A stretch of 64,000 nt of DNA from Crocinitomicaceae bacterium. Lineage in GTDB: Bacteria; Bacteroidota; Bacteroidia; Flavobacteriales_D; Crocinitomicaceae. The DNA is taken from assembly GCA_028689775.1 (NCBI GenBank), contig JAQVCM010000012.1, positions 62,001-126,000 on the forward strand, written 5' to 3'. The notes beneath the pieces are model-generated. The model was not told where the DNA came from and searched no databases. It saw only the letters and a list, made by a program, of their open reading frames with translations. A program made the position numbers and the translations under genes. Within the stretch, counting starts at the first letter, position 1. Each line of letters starts with the position of its first letter. This document shows, piece by piece, positions 17,488 to 24,993 of the stretch.

Positions 17488-17604
17488 TTTATATCCAATT
17501 ATCCGTATTGAAATGTGAAAATAAGGATATTTATTTTGAGTTGCTCTATTATTGCTGGTTTTATTTCAGGTTAATTGAATAATTGTTGTATTTTAGTATT
17601 CAAT

Positions 17605-20226
17605 ATGCCAATATTTAAATCAACCTTCAGCTCATTTTTCGTTTTCATCGCCGCGATTTTTGCTGCAACTTCTATCCGTGCACAAATAAATGTGATTGAT
17701 GCCGCTGATTCCAATTCATTTCCAACTAATTATCTCGTTAACGACTTGGGTTCAATTTCTGAATTCAATTTTGAAACGAGATTAGGAATCGATTTAGAAG
17801 TAATGAATTACAGCGATTTATTGCATGTGTTGCGCTACAAAAAATTAGAGATTGGCATCGCTATTCCGGATGAACTTCTCATCCGAATCAATCGTTATCT
17901 CAAGCAGCAAGGGATTTATAACAATGAAATCAATCCATTTTTGGAATGGGAAATTGATGTTGAAGCTACGTTTTATCATCCAGCAACTGGAAGCATTAAA
18001 AAAATCGATGCTTTTTATACAAGAGATTATCATCAAAATCTTCAAACAGATGATTGGGATGAACTAAACACAGAATTCCCGTTCCGCGTTCGATTCGCAC
18101 CACCTTTGAATGGAGAATGGGAAACCACGATTTCTATTCGAATTAAGAATGAAAAAATAGCGACTTATTCTTCAAGTGTTTTATGTTTCCAAGTCATTGA
18201 AAGTAATGATCCTGGTTATGTGACTGTTTTTGAGAACAATCGAAATTTGAAACAAGGTGATAAAATGATCTATCCAGTTGGAACCAATTTTCCTGCTGAT
18301 TTCCCTTGTGTAGCTTGGTTTGGTGCTTGTTATGCGGAAATTCCGGGTGACTCTGTGCGAAGAGTAGATCATAAAACTCGTTTAGACACCATTTATTATG
18401 GACATAATTTACATACGGATTCTACCACCGAAAAAGCATCGAATGTACATGCATGGAATACCTATTTAAACACACTTTCAGAATATTTTCAAAGCGGAGG
18501 AAAGTACATTCGCACGCTGCAAATGGCATGGTCAACTTTGATTGAGTTTGAAGAAAAAGGGAATTATTACAAGCGACTTCATTACGCTTGGGAACAAGAT
18601 AAAATTTTGGACAGCTTGGAAAAATACGATGTTTTGATGATTTTCAACATGTTGGAACAAGCGCCGCATACAAAATATGCACACAATAGCACCACCGAAT
18701 GGGATTGGGATTACGATACGTATGATGTGAATGGGCAATTTGTTACGGATCCTTGGGTATACGACAAAAAACGGTATTGCTACAACGACAAACCCCAAGG
18801 ACAAAAGAAAGCTGACGAGTCATTTACAAATGAAAGTGATTTGATGTATCACAAACAACGAACTCGCTACTACGTTGCACGTTATGGATATTCCACCAAG
18901 ATCATGGAATTCGAACTTTTAAGCGAACCGTTTCACGTGAGTAAACAATCCGATGTTACGGATACTTTAGGGAATGTGACAGTACAAGAATACAATGCGT
19001 ATGAAGATGGTAATGTGGTTAAAGACGCTATAAATAATTACCACAAAGTATTGTCTGAATACATGAAAGATTCTTTAGACGTAAACCAATTGGTTGGAAT
19101 TGATATGGGGCACGGTAATTCCTTAGACTTGAAATCGATAAAACTTCCAAAAATTGATGTTGCGGGTGTGAATTTATACTACAAAGGACCTCGTGATTTA
19201 TATGATAAAGGAAGGCCACTCATTGTAAATGCATTATGGGCATCTCGAGGTAGTAAAATACCCATTTTATTTTCAGAAGGAGGACTTGATGAAGACTATA
19301 ATGGATGCTCTGATCGCACACAAATACCTGTTGACTTGATGACCTTTCCATTTGCCAGTGTTGGCGGATATTTGACGTGGGCAGGTTGGCGAAAAGAATT
19401 AGAAGGACATTTGTGGCCAGCAATAATTCGGGCCGAAAACCACATGAATGGACCTGATGTGATTAGTACCTTGAGTGAAGGTGGTGGAGAATGGTGGCAT
19501 GATATGCAAGATGCTGAGAAAATCAATGAATATACGGTTGAACAACAGTACTACGTTTCTCAAAATCAAAATAGAGCAGTTGGATATGTCAAAAATAGGA
19601 CCTATAATATAGCAACGCAGCATCTACCCTCAGATACTTGTTTTGTTTTTGACGCCATTTACAATGATGTTCAACAAACTTCATGGGATGATGTAAAAAA
19701 AAAGGATCGATTGCGTATAGAACATTTAAAAAAGAAAACAGAATATCGGGTTCATTGGTATTCGTCCTATTCCATTCAAAACAATGGTTATATTAAATCA
19801 GATTGTATCGAAACCGATAAAAAAAATGGGATTTGGGGATTTGTTTTAGAATATCCAGAATTGGGAGAGTCTGTAGCTGGAAATACTAATTTACCAATTT
19901 ATTGGTACGTTATAGAAGAAGGCTGTTCAAATGGTTTGGCACAACAAGCAACACAAGAGAAAGAAGATGAATTGACTACTTTACTGACAATTGATGTTTA
20001 TGAAAATGAAGTAATCACAGTTTATCCAAATCCTTTTGAAACCAGTTTCACGGTTAATAGTTTAACCAGTGATCATTTATTAATTCAAACGTTAGACGGT
20101 AAGTTTATTGGCTCTTTTACAATCGAACCAGGGGAAAATCGAATCTCTTTGCCTTTTGTGCAAAAAGGAGTGTATATCTGCAAACTTCAAGGTCAATTAT
20201 TTACGTTTAAACTCTTGAAATTATGA
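17605..20226 (+). CDS. T9SS-secreted DUF5060 / GH-like surface protein
   Basis: About 873 residues. Signal peptide FFVFIAAIFAATSIRAQ; residues ~95-200 match the DUF5060 Ig-like domain that precedes glycosidase barrels (INPFLEWEIDVEATFYHP, FRVRFAPPLNGEWETT). A (beta/alpha)8-like domain follows, with candidate clan GH-A acid/base in FELLSEPFHV and nucleophile in ILFSEGGLDED. The last ~75 residues are a T9SS type A sorting domain (VITVYPNPFETSF ... KGVYICKL). The start is the ATG at 17605, since the upstream in-frame TTG would bury the signal. Its stop overlaps the next gene's ATG (ATGA), so it is coupled to the first barrel gene. Substrate unknown; the catalytic residues are my reading, not proven. 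Confidence 0.8.
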   Translation: MPIFKSTFSSFFVFIAAIFAATSIRAQINVIDAADSNSFPTNYLVNDLGSISEFNFETRLGIDLEVMNYSDLLHVLRYKKLEIGIAIPDELLIRINRYLKQQGIYNNEINPFLEWEIDVEATFYHPATGSIKKIDAFYTRDYHQNLQTDDWDELNTEFPFRVRFAPPLNGEWETTISIRIKNEKIATYSSSVLCFQVIESNDPGYVTVFENNRNLKQGDKMIYPVGTNFPADFPCVAWFGACYAEIPGDSVRRVDHKTRLDTIYYGHNLHTDSTTEKASNVHAWNTYLNTLSEYFQSGGKYIRTLQMAWSTLIEFEEKGNYYKRLHYAWEQDKILDSLEKYDVLMIFNMLEQAPHTKYAHNSTTEWDWDYDTYDVNGQFVTDPWVYDKKRYCYNDKPQGQKKADESFTNESDLMYHKQRTRYYVARYGYSTKIMEFELLSEPFHVSKQSDVTDTLGNVTVQEYNAYEDGNVVKDAINNYHKVLSEYMKDSLDVNQLVGIDMGHGNSLDLKSIKLPKIDVAGVNLYYKGPRDLYDKGRPLIVNALWASRGSKIPILFSEGGLDEDYNGCSDRTQIPVDLMTFPFASVGGYLTWAGWRKELEGHLWPAIIRAENHMNGPDVISTLSEGGGEWWHDMQDAEKINEYTVEQQYYVSQNQNRAVGYVKNRTYNIATQHLPSDTCFVFDAIYNDVQQTSWDDVKKKDRLRIEHLKKKTEYRVHWYSSYSIQNNGYIKSDCIETDKKNGIWGFVLEYPELGESVAGNTNLPIYWYVIEEGCSNGLAQQATQEKEDELTTLLTIDVYENEVITVYPNPFETSFTVNSLTSDHLLIQTLDGKFIGSFTIEPGENRISLPFVQKGVYICKLQGQLFTFKLLKL

Positions 20227-21008
20227 AAAACAATCTATTAATATCTTGTTTGTTCTTGATTAATAATCTATTTGTTTTCGCTCAAAAAGAAATACAACCA
20301 GAAATCGGGTTTTCCGGAAATGGTTCTTTTTTTGGAAATTATGTTTTTAAAGATTACAATAACGTATCAGGAGCGATGCATCGGAAACTTTATTATTCTA
20401 GACACATGTATTTGGGTTTTAACACAAGGATTGGTGGACGAATTAAATATCAAAATATGAGTTTTTTATTTTCAGGAACCTATCATAAAGTTAATAGTCG
20501 AGATGATATTTACAGTGGTTTTATTTTTTCTTCAGACTTGTTAGGAATAGACACAGAATTAAGATTATTTGAAAAAAGTGCATTTAGATTATTTTTTAAT
20601 TTACAACTTATGTCCGAAGTCTATTCTAAATATAAGAATGGCTATCTTGAATTAGAAGAATATGTACCCGTAAAAAAATATTATTTCTACCCTACGTCTT
20701 CGAACTCAACAGGAACTGTCCGAACAAACATTTACAGAGGAACACCTTTTTTAAGTAACGTTTTAATTGGTTGTAATTTACAACTCATAGAATCTATGAG
20801 TTTGAATGTGTCTGCTGGATATGGATTAAAGGTATTAAGAACTCAAGAAGCAACTTTGTTATTTGATAAAAGTGTATCACTCTCAGAACCTAAATCTATA
20901 ATATTGGAAAAACAACCATATTTTGTTACTTTTCACATGTTTAATGTACAAGTTGGGTTGAATTATGTTTTTTCAATGAAGAAAAGGTCTAAAACGGAAC
21001 ATTTATGA
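20223..21008 (+). CDS. Tandem outer-membrane protein paralogue 1
   Basis: 261 residues. Signal peptide ends at LFVFAQ, followed by KEIQPEIGFSGNGSFFGNY; the first two words recur in all five paralogues. Body composed of short amphipathic strands (MYLGFNTRIGGRIKYQNMSF, NVQVGLNYVFSMKK), consistent with an ~8-10-strand barrel. The ATG overlaps the stop of the T9SS glycosidase-like gene, and its own stop overlaps the ATG of the 33-codon tail at 21005. No named family is recognised. It resembles copy 4 in its EISFSGNG-type N-terminus and differs clearly from copies 2, 3 and 5. It is the likely ancestral partner of the upstream surface enzyme. Confidence 0.85.
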   Translation: MKNNLLISCLFLINNLFVFAQKEIQPEIGFSGNGSFFGNYVFKDYNNVSGAMHRKLYYSRHMYLGFNTRIGGRIKYQNMSFLFSGTYHKVNSRDDIYSGFIFSSDLLGIDTELRLFEKSAFRLFFNLQLMSEVYSKYKNGYLELEEYVPVKKYYFYPTSSNSTGTVRTNIYRGTPFLSNVLIGCNLQLIESMSLNVSAGYGLKVLRTQEATLLFDKSVSLSEPKSIILEKQPYFVTFHMFNVQVGLNYVFSMKKRSKTEHL

Positions 21009-21106
21009 GTAAAAGTTTAGCAATCTCTCTTTCGGAAATATTAAAAGGAATCTACATCTGTAAGTTAAAAAATCAAATATTTATCACTAAACTCATCCGA
21101 TTATGA
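21005..21106 (+). other. Tail 1: intact 33-codon frame homologous to a T9SS sorting-domain end
   Basis: Open frame of 33 codons, ATGA-overlapped at both ends with the barrel genes. It contains ISLSEILKGIYICKL and ends KLIRL-stop; the T9SS gene at 17605 ends ISLPFVQKGVYICKL ... KLLKL-stop. About 15 of 29 aligned residues are identical. Either a remnant of a duplicated gene end or a short coupled peptide that passes ribosomes to copy 2. Confidence 0.8.
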
Positions 21107-21864
21107 AACGAATTATTTCATTTCTTATTTTTTTTAATTGCATTTCAATTTTCGCTCAGAGAGAAATTCAGCCAGAATTTGGTGCTTTAATTTATACATC
21201 TAGAGAAAGATATTACAATACGAAATACACGCATGACTATTCAAATTATAAGAAGGTTTGGACAAATAACTATCCCTATGGCTTTAAACTCAAATTTGGA
21301 CCACGATTTTTAAGTACTAATAAAAGTGTATCTGTCAATTTACAGTATCAATTTCTTAAAATTAATGATAGCGGGTACTTTGGAAACCCGATAGCATTAA
21401 AATCAAATTTACTGGGTGTCGGTGCTGATTTGAGATTGTTTGAGCAAAAAAGAGTGCGCTTATTTTTTCAAGTTGCATTACTCACAGAGATACAAAGTAA
21501 TTACATAGATGCTTTTCTGAGTTCGGGATCTTATAGCCCTACAGATTTTCCACCTCAGCACTTTTTTGGCGATTATGTTCACACAAATATTTATAGAGGA
21601 ACTCCATTTGTTGGTAATCTTTCATTGGGTTGCAACGTGAAAATTTTACATGGATTGAATTTAAACCTTTCTTTTGGTTACGGCATGAGAATGATAAAAT
21701 GTCAACGCGCAGAATTGACTTTTATCAAAGATCAGTCATTTCAGGTTCAAACAAAAATTAAGAATGTTTATGATGAATATTCCGTTCCTTTTCACATGCT
21801 CGATTTTCAAGCTGGTTTAAGTTATACATTTTCAATGAAGAAAAAATCTAAAGCGGAAGAATGA
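21103..21864 (+). CDS. Tandem outer-membrane protein paralogue 2
   Basis: 253 residues with signal peptide (ISFLIFFNCISIFAQ) and mature start REIQPEFGALIYTS. Strand-rich body with conserved blocks KFGPRFLSTNKSVSVNLQYQ, LLGVGADLRLFEQKRVRLFF, TNIYRGTPFVGNLSLGCNVK and the C-terminal strand HMLDFQAGLSYTFSMKKKSK. From about residue 60 to the end it is almost identical to copy 3, while residues 25-55 differ, the pattern expected if the exposed N-terminal part diverges. The start overlaps the stop of tail 1. No named family; outer-membrane location is inferred from signal and strand pattern. Confidence 0.85.
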   Translation: MKRIISFLIFFNCISIFAQREIQPEFGALIYTSRERYYNTKYTHDYSNYKKVWTNNYPYGFKLKFGPRFLSTNKSVSVNLQYQFLKINDSGYFGNPIALKSNLLGVGADLRLFEQKRVRLFFQVALLTEIQSNYIDAFLSSGSYSPTDFPPQHFFGDYVHTNIYRGTPFVGNLSLGCNVKILHGLNLNLSFGYGMRMIKCQRAELTFIKDQSFQVQTKIKNVYDEYSVPFHMLDFQAGLSYTFSMKKKSKAEE

Positions 21865-21965
21865 TGAGAAGTAGTCTAGCAATCTCTCTTTCAAAAATGT
21901 CAAAATGAATTTATGTTTTAAGCCTTAAAAATCAATTATTTATCACTAAATTCATCCGATTATGA
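21864..21965 (+). pseudogene. Tail 2: decayed sorting-domain remnant with in-frame TGA
   Basis: 102 bp. Reads MRSSLAISLSKMSK-stop, then IYVLSLKNQLFITKFIRL-stop. The TGA (21906-21908) stands where tail 1 has GGA (Gly). No indels relative to the other tails. Confidence 0.75.
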
Positions 21966-22723
21966 AACGTATAATTCCCTTTCTTGTAATTTTTAATTGC
22001 ATTTCAATTTTCGCTCAGAGAGAAATTCAGCCAGAATTTGCTGCTTTAATTTATACCTCTAGGCAAGAATTTTACACTGGCAAAACCACGTGGGAAAACC
22101 CAAACGATAAATTAGTATCGTGTTTTGACATATTCTATGGCTTTAAACTCAAATTTGGACCACGATTTTTAAGTACTAATAAAAGTGTATCTGTCAACTT
22201 ACAGTATCAATTTCTTCAACATAATAATAAGGGGTACTTTGGAAACCCGATTGTATTAAAATCAAATTTATTGGGTATTGGCGCTGATTTGAGATTGTTT
22301 GAGCAAAAAAGAGTACGCTTATTTTTTCAAGTTGCTTTTCTAACAGAGATACAAAGTAATTACATAGATGATTTTCTGCGTTCGGGATCTTATAGCCCTA
22401 CAGATTTTCCACCTCAGCAATTTTTTGGTGATTATGTTCACACAAATATTTATAGAGGAACTCCATTTGTTGGTAATCTTTCATTGGGTTGCAACGTGAA
22501 AATTTTAAGTGGATTGAATTTAAACCTTTCTTTTGGTTACGGCATGCGGATCATAAAATGTCAACGCGCAGAATTGACTTTTATCAAAGATCAGACATTT
22601 CAGGTTCAAACAAAAATTAAGAATATTAATGATGAATATTTCGTTCCTTTCCACATGCTCGATTTTGAAGCTGGTTTAAGTTATACATTTTCAATGAATA
22701 AAAAATCTAAAGCGGAAGAATGA
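21962..22723 (+). CDS. Tandem outer-membrane protein paralogue 3
   Basis: 253 residues, nearly identical to copy 2 over the last ~190 residues (same blocks around LSTNKSVSVNLQYQFL and GTPFVGNLSLGCNVK), with a divergent segment at ~25-55 (TGKTTWENPNDKLVS). Signal peptide PFLVIFNCISIFAQ is shared with copies 4 and 5 rather than copy 2, which indicates recombination between copies. Final strand HMLDFEAGLSYTFSMNKKSK. Followed directly by tail 3. Expected to be an outer-membrane barrel; no ligand or partner can be read from the sequence. Confidence 0.85.
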   Translation: MKRIIPFLVIFNCISIFAQREIQPEFAALIYTSRQEFYTGKTTWENPNDKLVSCFDIFYGFKLKFGPRFLSTNKSVSVNLQYQFLQHNNKGYFGNPIVLKSNLLGIGADLRLFEQKRVRLFFQVAFLTEIQSNYIDDFLRSGSYSPTDFPPQQFFGDYVHTNIYRGTPFVGNLSLGCNVKILSGLNLNLSFGYGMRIIKCQRAELTFIKDQTFQVQTKIKNINDEYFVPFHMLDFEAGLSYTFSMNKKSKAEE

Positions 22724-22824
22724 TGAGAAGTAGTTTAGCAATCTTTCTTTCAGAAATGTCAAAATAAATTTATGTTTTAAGCCTTAAAAATCAATTGTTT
22801 ATCACTAAACTCATCCGATTATGA
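22723..22824 (+). pseudogene. Tail 3: decayed sorting-domain remnant with in-frame TAA
   Basis: 102 bp. Reads MRSSLAIFLSEMSK-stop then IYVLSLKNQLFITKLIRL-stop. Differs from tail 2 by only a few substitutions; the internal stop is TAA instead of TGA at the same codon. Confidence 0.75.
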
Positions 22825-23645
22825 AACGAATTATTCTCTTTCTTGTAATTTTTAATTGTATTTCAATTTTCGCTCAAAAAGAAATTCAACCAGAAATTAG
22901 TTTTTCAGGAAATGGCGCTGCTTTTGGATTTTATAATACCAATAAAGTACATGATTGGTCAGTTCAAGAAATTCATTCAAATCCTTACAATTCTGGTAAT
23001 GGCTATGTAGGATTTGTTTCCAAGATTGGGTCCCGTTTCATCTTTGGTAATAAAAGTTTTCTTGTTAGTTTACAATATCAATGGTTTAAGACAGGTGGTG
23101 AGAGTCAAAATCAAACCAAACTCACGTCCAATTTATTAGGATTAGGTACCGAAATACGATTTTTCGAAAAAAACAAGGTCAAATTATTATTAAATGTTCA
23201 ATTAATGTCGGAAGTGTATTCTGGATACAGAAATAATTATCTGCGAAAAAAAAGTTACCGTCCTATTAAACACTATCACGTATTACCACTTTCTAATTAT
23301 TCAGGAGAAAAGGTAAAAACCAATATTTATAAAGGAACACCTTTTATCGGTAATTTTTTGATTGGTTGCAATGTGAAAATTGTTAACGAACTAAGTTTTA
23401 ATTTTTCAGTTGGCTACGGACTGAGAGTGTTGAGAAGTCAATTAGCAAACTTGACATATATTTATGCTGTCTCTCTGACTGAACCTACAAAAGAAGAAAA
23501 CATCGACAAACCGTATCTTGTTCCTTTTTCACATGCTCGATTTTCAAGCTGGTTTAAGTTATACATTTTCAATGAAGAAAAAAACGAAATTGGATGGATT
23601 ATGAGTAAAAGTTTAGCAATCTTTCTTTCAGAAATGTCAAAATAA
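22821..23645 (+). CDS. Tandem outer-membrane protein paralogue 4, 3' frameshifted
   Basis: 274-residue frame with signal peptide LFLVIFNCISIFAQ and mature KEIQPEISFSGNGAAFGFY, closest to copy 1 in its N-terminal half. Near the end, the codons for VPFHMLDFQAGLSYTFSMKK are present in the DNA but shifted: copies 2, 3 and 5 have CCTTTTCACATG or CCTTTCCACATG, while this copy has CCTTTTTCACATG (T run 23525-23529). The reading therefore becomes SHARFSSWFKLYIFNEEKNE and runs on into tail 4, ending MSKSLAIFLSEMSK. Without the extra T it would stop at 23604. Loss of the last barrel strand, which usually carries the BAM signal, suggests a non-functional product. Confidence 0.8.
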   Translation: MKRIILFLVIFNCISIFAQKEIQPEISFSGNGAAFGFYNTNKVHDWSVQEIHSNPYNSGNGYVGFVSKIGSRFIFGNKSFLVSLQYQWFKTGGESQNQTKLTSNLLGLGTEIRFFEKNKVKLLLNVQLMSEVYSGYRNNYLRKKSYRPIKHYHVLPLSNYSGEKVKTNIYKGTPFIGNFLIGCNVKIVNELSFNFSVGYGLRVLRSQLANLTYIYAVSLTEPTKEENIDKPYLVPFSHARFSSWFKLYIFNEEKNEIGWIMSKSLAIFLSEMSK

Positions 23646-23702
23646 ATTTATGTTTTAAGCCTTAAAAATCAATTGTTTATCACTAAATTCATCCGATTAT
23701 GA
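23601..23702 (+). pseudogene. Tail 4: decayed sorting-domain remnant, fused to frameshifted copy 4
   Basis: 102 bp reading MSKSLAIFLSEMSK-stop (TAA 23643-23645) then IYVLSLKNQLFITKFIRL-stop. Its frame is the one entered by the shifted copy 4. Confidence 0.75.
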
Positions 23703-24460
23703 AACGTATAATTCCCTTTCTTGTAATTTTTAATTGCATTTCAATTTTCGCTCAGAGAGAAATTCAGCCAGAATTTGGTGCATTGCTTTATACATCCCAA
23801 AAAGGATATTATGACAGTAAAAAAACAAATCAAAATTCTAATAAAGAGCTCATTTTATCAAATAACTCATACTATGGGTTTAAAATCAATATTGGTAGTC
23901 GATTTATCCTTCGAAAAAAAAGTATTTCTTTAAATTTTCAATATCAATATCTTGAAAATAATGGTGCAGGTTTTAAAGGAAATCGCATTTCTTTAAAATC
24001 AAATCTTATTGGTATTGGTGGTTCGTTGCGCTTGTTAGAATTAAATAGAGTTCGATTATTTTTTCAAACAGCTTTTCTCACAGAAATTTCAACTAATTAC
24101 ATGAATAATTATCTCGTTAATAGATATTTTACACCAGCAGATTATCTGCCCTATCAGCTTGAAGATGGCTATGTTTTTACGAATCTATATAAAGGAACTC
24201 CATTGATTACAAATTTCTCAATTGGCTGTAATGTAAAAATTGTATCAGGTTTAAGTTTCGATGCCACATTTGGATATGGTATACGATTATTACGAAGTCA
24301 ACATGCAATACTTAATCCCAACTCTAATACTCCAAAAGGCCATGTACAAGTCCAAAGTATTAATTCTCCATACTTAGTACCTTTCCACATGCTCGATTTT
24401 CAAGCTGGTTTAAGTTATACATTTTCAATGAAGAAAAAAACGAAATTGGATGGATTATGA
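23699..24460 (+). CDS. Tandem outer-membrane protein paralogue 5
   Basis: 253 residues, intact. Signal peptide identical to copy 3; mature start REIQPEFGALLYTSQKGYY. The middle has diverged (NIGSRFILRKKSISLNFQYQ, GTPLITNFSIGCNVK), but the last ~100 bp are nearly identical to the frameshifted 3' end of copy 4, consistent with gene conversion. Final strand HMLDFQAGLSYTFSMKKKTK. It is the last member; the following 102-bp tail ends at ATGAAA of a missing sixth copy. Likely outer-membrane barrel; function unknown. Confidence 0.85.
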   Translation: MKRIIPFLVIFNCISIFAQREIQPEFGALLYTSQKGYYDSKKTNQNSNKELILSNNSYYGFKINIGSRFILRKKSISLNFQYQYLENNGAGFKGNRISLKSNLIGIGGSLRLLELNRVRLFFQTAFLTEISTNYMNNYLVNRYFTPADYLPYQLEDGYVFTNLYKGTPLITNFSIGCNVKIVSGLSFDATFGYGIRLLRSQHAILNPNSNTPKGHVQVQSINSPYLVPFHMLDFQAGLSYTFSMKKKTKLDGL

Positions 24461-24558
24461 GTAAAAGTTTAGCAATCTCTCTTTCGGAAATATTAAAAGG
24501 AATCTACATCTGTAAGTTTAAAAATCAAGTATTTATAACTAAGATAATTTGATTATGA
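24457..24558 (+). other. Tail 5: largely open sorting-domain tail ending the array
   Basis: Open for 31 codons (stop 24550-24552), containing ISLSEILKGIYICKF, more like tail 1 than tails 2-4. ATGA overlap with the stop of copy 5 is kept. The downstream ATG at 24555 opens only eight codons, so the next copy has been lost. Confidence 0.75.
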
Positions 24559-24651
24559 AATCGAAAAATCAAAAGTGTTAAACTGCGAAATCGTGTTTTC
24601 AGCATGCGAATATTCAGTTTCCTTTTGAAAAAATCGTATCTTTAATTCCAA

Positions 24652-24945
24652 ATGATTTCCAACGAGAAAAAACATACGCTCATTCATTTCCACGCTGCTT
24701 GGTGCAGTCCGTGTCAGACAATGGAACCAATTATCGATCGCATTGAAAAAGAATTTGAACGTCAACTTCAAATTCTGAAAGTAGATGTGGACGAATTGGA
24801 ACAATTTGCACAGTATTTTAAAGTTCAAAATGTTCCCACTTTTGTCTTGATTGAAGCTGAAAATATTCTTTGGAAACAAGCTGGAATACTCACTTTCGCT
24901 GAACTCAAAAAAGTAATTTCTGAGCACCTTTCTCGCAATTGTTGA
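24652..24945 (+). CDS. Thioredoxin-family protein
   Basis: 97-residue cytoplasmic thioredoxin fold. The redox site is HAAWCSPCQTMEP (CSPC instead of the usual CGPC), the cis-proline follows VQNVPTFVLI, and the last helix is AELKKVISEHL. No signal peptide, so it acts in the cytoplasm. TATCTTTA, one base off the -7 consensus, lies 7 bp upstream of the ATG. Short but complete compared with the usual ~105 residues. A long antisense frame covers the same DNA and is rejected. Substrate unknown; general disulfide reduction is the default. Confidence 0.9.
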   Translation: MISNEKKHTLIHFHAAWCSPCQTMEPIIDRIEKEFERQLQILKVDVDELEQFAQYFKVQNVPTFVLIEAENILWKQAGILTFAELKKVISEHLSRNC

Positions 24946-24977
24946 CAACTCTTTCCCTTCAGATATGGAAATTGTGA

Positions 24978-24985
24978 TATTTTTG
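24978..24985 (+). promoter_or_regulatory. -7 box TATTTTTG of the NlpC/P60 gene
   Basis: Exact TAnnTTTG match ending 8 bp before the ATG at 24994, so the 5' leader would be only a few nucleotides. Confidence 0.5.
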
Positions 24986-24993
24986 TAGCCAAG

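Follow-up and report, generated by a model that had tools for sequence, protein, structure and literature searches.

T9SS gene remnants between outer-membrane barrel genes in Crocinitomicaceae suggest a probable recombining cassette array

The window analysed here is a stretch of 64,000 nucleotides from a Crocinitomicaceae bacterium. In it, a gene for a T9SS-exported protein heads a row of five outer-membrane (OM) barrel genes, each followed by a short spacer that is supported by sequence comparison as the fossil 3′ end of a T9SS gene. We read the locus, with moderate confidence, as a recombining cassette array, in which the T9SS gene and its overlapping barrel gene are the head and displaced cassettes of a 3′ fragment plus a barrel gene lie behind. 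The window holds an eroded form of this conserved-head, variable-cassette array.

Results

The head gene

The gene heading the array (17605..20226, forward strand) encodes 873 residues counted from ATG, or 883 from a TTG at 17575. Its DUF5060 match is just below the Pfam gathering score (E=2e-5, 25.2 bits versus 27.2), and its profile matches to the DUF5060 PDB entries 9gmj and 9gpc reach E~1e-19 (best 7e-20). The protein looks like a glycosidase. A Por_Secre_tail/TIGR04183 match marks a C-terminal sorting domain at residues 806-873 (20020..20226), where TIGR04183 scores 27.7 bits against a cut-off of 23, and by this domain the protein is a predicted type A substrate. In the Pfam scan, PF18962 is matched by every one of the 10 head proteins and long fragments examined.

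Pfam scans of the window protein and of the relatives' head proteins and fragments gave no match to the MACPF domain. A PADLOC hit to PsyrA (E=0.0014) was weak and partial in coverage and is attributed to chance. The AlphaFold2 model of the protein was poor (pLDDT 47) and was set aside.

The barrel genes

All five barrel genes are on the forward strand. Barrel 1 (20223..21008; barrel HMM 1.5e-81) overlaps the T9SS stop codon via ATGA, and is followed by barrel 2 (21103..21864), barrel 3 (21962..22723), barrel 4 (22821..23645) and barrel 5 (23699..24460; barrel HMM 1.1e-81). By pairwise comparison, barrel 3 is 84% identical to barrel 2, with 14 of the 19 residues of extracellular loop 1 changed. 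Barrel 4 carries a +1 frameshift at ~23527, T5 for T4, that puts its last strand out of frame and runs it into spacer 4. The extra T could reflect a pseudogene, a T run that switches, or an error of sequencing.

The barrel genes (20223-24460) have a G+C content of 30%, below the 36% of the T9SS gene and its surroundings. Elsewhere in the same genome stands a sixth, solitary member of the barrel family, without a T9SS tail (G000 C44 55322-56107; L027 8305-9117). A scan of the region gave no more promoter- and terminator-like sites than shuffled sequence does, and so lends no support to each cassette being transcribed on its own. No tandem repeats of note were found at the window locus.

An AlphaFold2 model built with 18 sequences gives barrel 2 a signal peptide and an eight-strand OM barrel (pLDDT 85, pTM 0.79). 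Compared with known folds it scores Z 13-15, the closest being NspA (14.9), OprF (13.8), OmpA (13.5) and OmpW (13.5). On the model, the barrels are of the OmpA/OmpX/OmpW/NspA fold class, with eight strands and a signal peptide, which is an assignment to fold only and not to family. None of the five window barrels matches a curated Pfam or NCBIfam barrel model at E<=1, including those for PorP/SprF, which is paired with type B substrates, and DUF3575 is weakly matched by one of 18 related barrels.

The barrel family was found only in 11 genomes, all of the window's own family, Crocinitomicaceae. A sample of 394 further genomes of the phylum contained no member, and neither did the order sample outside the family. 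The relatives came from genome searches; a single-protein scan of genome contigs with barrel 2 as the query gave none. The distribution is patchy even among congeners. The block of T9SS gene, barrel array and thioredoxin-like gene (17488..24993) lies between MerR-type and NlpC/P60-type genes, and in four congeners (G001-G004) it is missing and these flanking genes are ~66-80 bp apart. Hence, the block was either gained in the window lineage or lost in the congeners. The barrels have dN/dS of 0.21-0.52, which argues that they are kept functional.

The spacers

The five spacers have equal lengths of 98 bp from ATG to ATG, or 102 bp with both ATGA ends. They are found at 21005..21106, 21864..21965, 22723..22824, 23601..23702 and 24457..24558, all on the forward strand. 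The initial annotation had claimed that they align in frame with the end of the T9SS gene including the ATGA junction, and our alignment confirms it. The last 27 codons and the stop of the T9SS gene (20143..20226) are retained in all five, with 15, 11, 11, 10 and 13 identities of 27 in spacers 1-5, ungapped and read in the frame whose last codons run into the ATGA overlap.

The scores of 46-80 exceed the maxima of 34-40 in 100,000 residue shuffles and of 27 at ~186,000 random window positions (p <= 1e-5). Chance similarity was thus rejected, as no shuffle or random position beat the spacers. A tail HMM made from other tails, with the spacers excluded, detects the four barrel-preceding spacers at E = 6e-8 (spacer 1) to 7e-5.

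Spacer 1 keeps a short frame intact from its ATG to the ATGA overlap. Spacers 2-4 are almost identical to one another and have a stop in frame after 'SK' (TGA in spacer 2, TAA in spacer 3), so none of the three is coding over its full length. Spacer 4 has a mosaic make-up, as its first 9 nt are as in spacers 1 and 5 and the remainder is spacer 3 except for one base. Spacer 5 closes the array, and a short remnant, ATGAAATCG...TAA, takes the place of a barrel after it.

The proposal that the spacers are relics of the tail end therefore stands on the 27-codon alignment, with the qualifications that spacers 2-4 hold stops, spacer 4 is mosaic and spacer 5 precedes no barrel. The source of the copies was less well judged. 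The tail of a G022 fragment, from another genus, matches the spacers about as well (13-15 of 27) as the resident tail does (10-15 of 27), and the spacers are not clearly derived, by these comparisons, from the gene directly upstream.

Similarly, barrel 4 has its nearest relative in G022 barrel 2 of the other genus (53%) and is <=45% identical to the barrels of its own array, so local duplication alone, as first supposed, does not account for the array. Because barrel 4 and the spacers match G022 as well or better, the array probably holds foreign or old alleles that were later multiplied locally. Between the divergent units of the array, identity is mostly 70-100% at the joints, where the 3′ end of one barrel, the tail and the signal peptide of the next barrel meet, and mostly 35-70% in the barrel middles.

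Intermediates in related genomes

The relatives include G010, G022 and G017, which appear to be Brumimicrobium aurantiacum N62, Flavobacteriia bacterium 40-80 and Crocinitomicaceae ACE_NR_BACT17, respectively. In the relatives, the barrels alternate with 5′-truncated copies of the T9SS gene, each ending at the C-terminus right before a barrel. These copies are ~520, 300-350, 125, 65-70, ~30-36 and 8 codons long. The shortest, FTFKIVKL before G022 barrel 3, was recognized by eye and is below significance in the tail profile. No tail was detected before G022 b4-b6, G059 C3 and G060 C78, which speaks against the cassette reading.

The initial annotation also suggested that copies of the full secreted protein once stood between the barrels. 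Longer copies do stand there in the relatives, but none of full length was found and the internal ones are always 5′-truncated. Nor is the duplicated unit just a tail plus a barrel, as the unit in the relatives consists of an anchor, a variable C-terminal region, the sorting domain and the barrel, of which the window holds an eroded form.

A lone barrel with a tail and no such T9SS gene nearby occurs in G059 and G060, and the head gene of G062 is internally deleted. The barrel thus outlives the exported protein. A spacer next to a barrel gene in genomes lacking the T9SS neighbour had been named as evidence against a relic origin; it occurs in two genomes, yet the tail there is a recognisable sorting-domain remnant, which is to say a relic.

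In L024 (Brumimicrobium aurantiacum; minus strand, ~3369-3310), the T9SS gene that comes first in the array opens ATGAAAAACACC...TGT T(CA)14 GG and continues near residue 167 of the protein in the window; from that ATG it is off frame with 14 repeats. The (CA)14 tract is possibly a phase-variation repeat, a deletion or an assembly joint. Directly 5′ of the T9SS gene, several relatives encode a surface-type protein whose end is coiled-coil-like (EELTLYLIEQQ; L022 3254-5281, L101 8850-9839, L106 8657-9700 and L061 4647-5477); it is absent in the window. A GNVGIGT motif that occurs in such surface proteins is, in G017, fused to the T9SS protein itself.

Anchor and variable cassette

The long fragments in G010 and G065 start at nearly one place with a conserved anchor of ~200 bp. 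Over the first ~180-225 nt they mostly share 92-98% identity with the head gene of their own genome (82% for G010_f298b). Beyond the anchor the identity drops to ~50%, except that one G065 fragment stays high to ~600 nt. The breakpoint is alike in the two genomes, ~180-225 nt into the anchor (max-chi2 p=0.0005).

Over all cassettes, the amino-acid identity of the anchor is 0.90 within genomes versus 0.53 between them (p=0.0002). The corresponding values are 0.38 and 0.34 for the C-terminal variable region and 0.30 and 0.27 for the barrel, neither pair differing significantly. Part of the pattern may come from an intrinsically better conservation of the anchor, whose nucleotide identity between G010 and G065 is 65% versus 45% for the rest. 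These comparisons are non-independent and come from few cassettes, some assemblies are drafts, and the G010 array is broken at contig ends.

One cassette type is common to G010_f298c, G065a_f385 and G062_f298, which are alike in the C-terminal region, the CTD and the barrel and have genome-specific anchors. Moreover, the distances of CTD and barrel correlate (Mantel r=0.44, p=0.004), a modest p that assumes independent cassettes. Taken together, the conserved anchor, the variable rest, the common cassette type and the CTD-barrel correlation are marks of recombination via the anchor, with the rest exchanged. Two loci of G065 fit this picture. They share ~2.9 kb at 100%, including the whole T9SS gene; the identity stops inside barrel 1, whose copies differ in blocks (63-86%), and the downstream cassettes differ between the two loci.

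Discussion

A life history of the array can be proposed from these findings. The head would be a full-length T9SS substrate, DUF5060/glycoside-hydrolase-like and with a type A sorting domain, whose stop codon is overlapped by a barrel gene. Each downstream cassette would be the 3′ part of another T9SS allele together with that allele's own eight-strand OM barrel. Homologous recombination would bring in new alleles, and the cassettes could be copied, deleted or swapped. The recombination sites may be the anchor at the fragment start in the relatives, and in the window the joint that runs from the 3′ end of a barrel through the tail to the following signal peptide.

An old T9SS part would then erode from its 5′ side, leaving the barrel and the last codons beside its translation start. 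The five 102-bp spacers would be a late stage of this erosion and would owe their number to unequal crossing-over. The old barrels may have been retained as still protective or still working. Since the anchor is gone from the window, the history of the window itself is read from the relatives.

Most likely, the barrel works as a partner to the exported protein's C-terminal part, for example in immunity-like self-protection or in surface docking. The glycosidase-like appearance of the exported protein speaks against immunity, and a toxin or immunity role is putative. In a further-reaching version, the array would be the T9SS counterpart of the polymorphic effector systems, where a downstream array supplies C-terminal region, sorting domain and cognate barrel together in a single exchangeable cassette and the old barrels give immunity to earlier alleles. 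We hold this version only tentatively. Exchange as in CDI is countered by the C-terminal regions of the cassettes, which are homologous and alignable at 23-66% identity (~35%), unlike the unrelated CDI toxin tips.

Another possible, though not favoured, reading is surface or antigenic variation, where the barrel is the business end as a phage receptor or an epitope for grazing or contact. The array would then be a reservoir of variants and the T9SS tails would be passengers that provide homology and the translation start region. In close barrel pairs, the extracellular loops are changed twice as often as the strands (38% versus 18.5%; OR 2.7, p=1e-11), and lone barrels without any T9SS tail exist. 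Also, the two copies of barrel 1 in G065 differ in loop blocks although their T9SS genes are identical.

However, OM proteins commonly show such an excess of loop variation, and none of the barrels compared turned out to be a donor of the loop patches that vary. Passenger tails are also at odds with the covarying distances of sorting domain and barrel, and with the T9SS C-terminal part itself belonging to the cassette that varies in G010 and G065. The loop diversity suits a phage receptor or a varying antigen about as well as it suits a partner in immunity or docking.

An unlikely account is plain tandem duplication and decay, in which unequal crossing-over amplified one resident unit of tail and barrel and left the tails behind as neutral debris. 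It would explain the common upstream junction and length of the five spacers, the near identity of spacers 2-4 and the similarity of barrels 2 and 3. It fails to explain why barrel 4 is nearer to another genus than to its neighbours, why the spacers fit a foreign tail equally well and why the relatives carry anchor-plus-variable cassettes with genome-specific anchors. Selection on the spacers for a function, such as a coupling peptide or an RNA element that passes ribosomes from barrel to barrel, would fit their constant length, the retained downstream ATGA overlaps and the intact frame of spacer 1, but is very improbable with in-frame stops in spacers 2-4 and 0, 8, ~30, 65 or 300 codons at the same position in other genomes.

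A recombining cassette array has partial precedents, although the initial annotation knew of no described case. Arrays of 3′ fragments and partner genes are known as the orphan cdiA-CT/cdiI modules of CDI/Rhs (PMC3150448) and for the T6SS (PMC5361080). For the T9SS, we found no description of arrays of this cassette kind in the open-licence literature.

As in the orphan CDI/Rhs arrays, 5′-truncated fragments stand behind a full-length exported gene, each with its own partner gene (PMC3150448). Also alike, an upstream anchor homologous to the head is followed by cassette-specific sequence related to other bacteria, here in G010 and G065, the anchor being lost in the window. The export is by T9SS instead of the two-partner or T6 export, the partner is a secreted OM barrel instead of a cytoplasmic immunity protein, and the C-terminal parts are homologous instead of unrelated toxins. 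Hence, the array is not filed as CDI or Rhs.

The orphan immunity gene arrays of the Vibrio cholerae T6SS, whose immunity function is established, are similar in genetic layout only, as old partner genes accumulate behind the current pair with the displaced effector 3′ end in between (PMC5361080). They differ in that export here is by T9SS, immunity is a conjecture and the window unit was afterwards multiplied in tandem.

Among the Bacteroidota, the Bacteroidales antimicrobial proteins BSAP-1 and BSAP-2 are secreted and encoded beside the gene for a resistant OM protein or O-antigen (PMC4999547). As at our locus, the exported protein has as its neighbour a gene whose product is a variant surface molecule; for BSAP-1 this is an OM protein that gives resistance by target replacement (PMC4999547). 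In contrast, the BSAPs have a MACPF domain, for which the T9SS protein here has no Pfam match, and no 3′-fragment arrays are described for them. Porphyromonas gingivalis, a T9SS-bearing member of the Bacteroidota, likewise diversifies its surface proteins through domain rearrangement and allelic exchange (PMC5266723). That exchange is between strains and genes, whereas here it would draw on 3′ cassettes that are arrayed behind the head together with a barrel gene.

The erosion stages from a fragment of ~520 codons to none would make the life history of such arrays reconstructable. They also raise the question whether a barrel recognises the C-terminus of the allele that it arrived with. If the cassette reading is true, a major secretion system of the Bacteroidota would own a cassette-swapping effector or surface system with an OM barrel as the partner.
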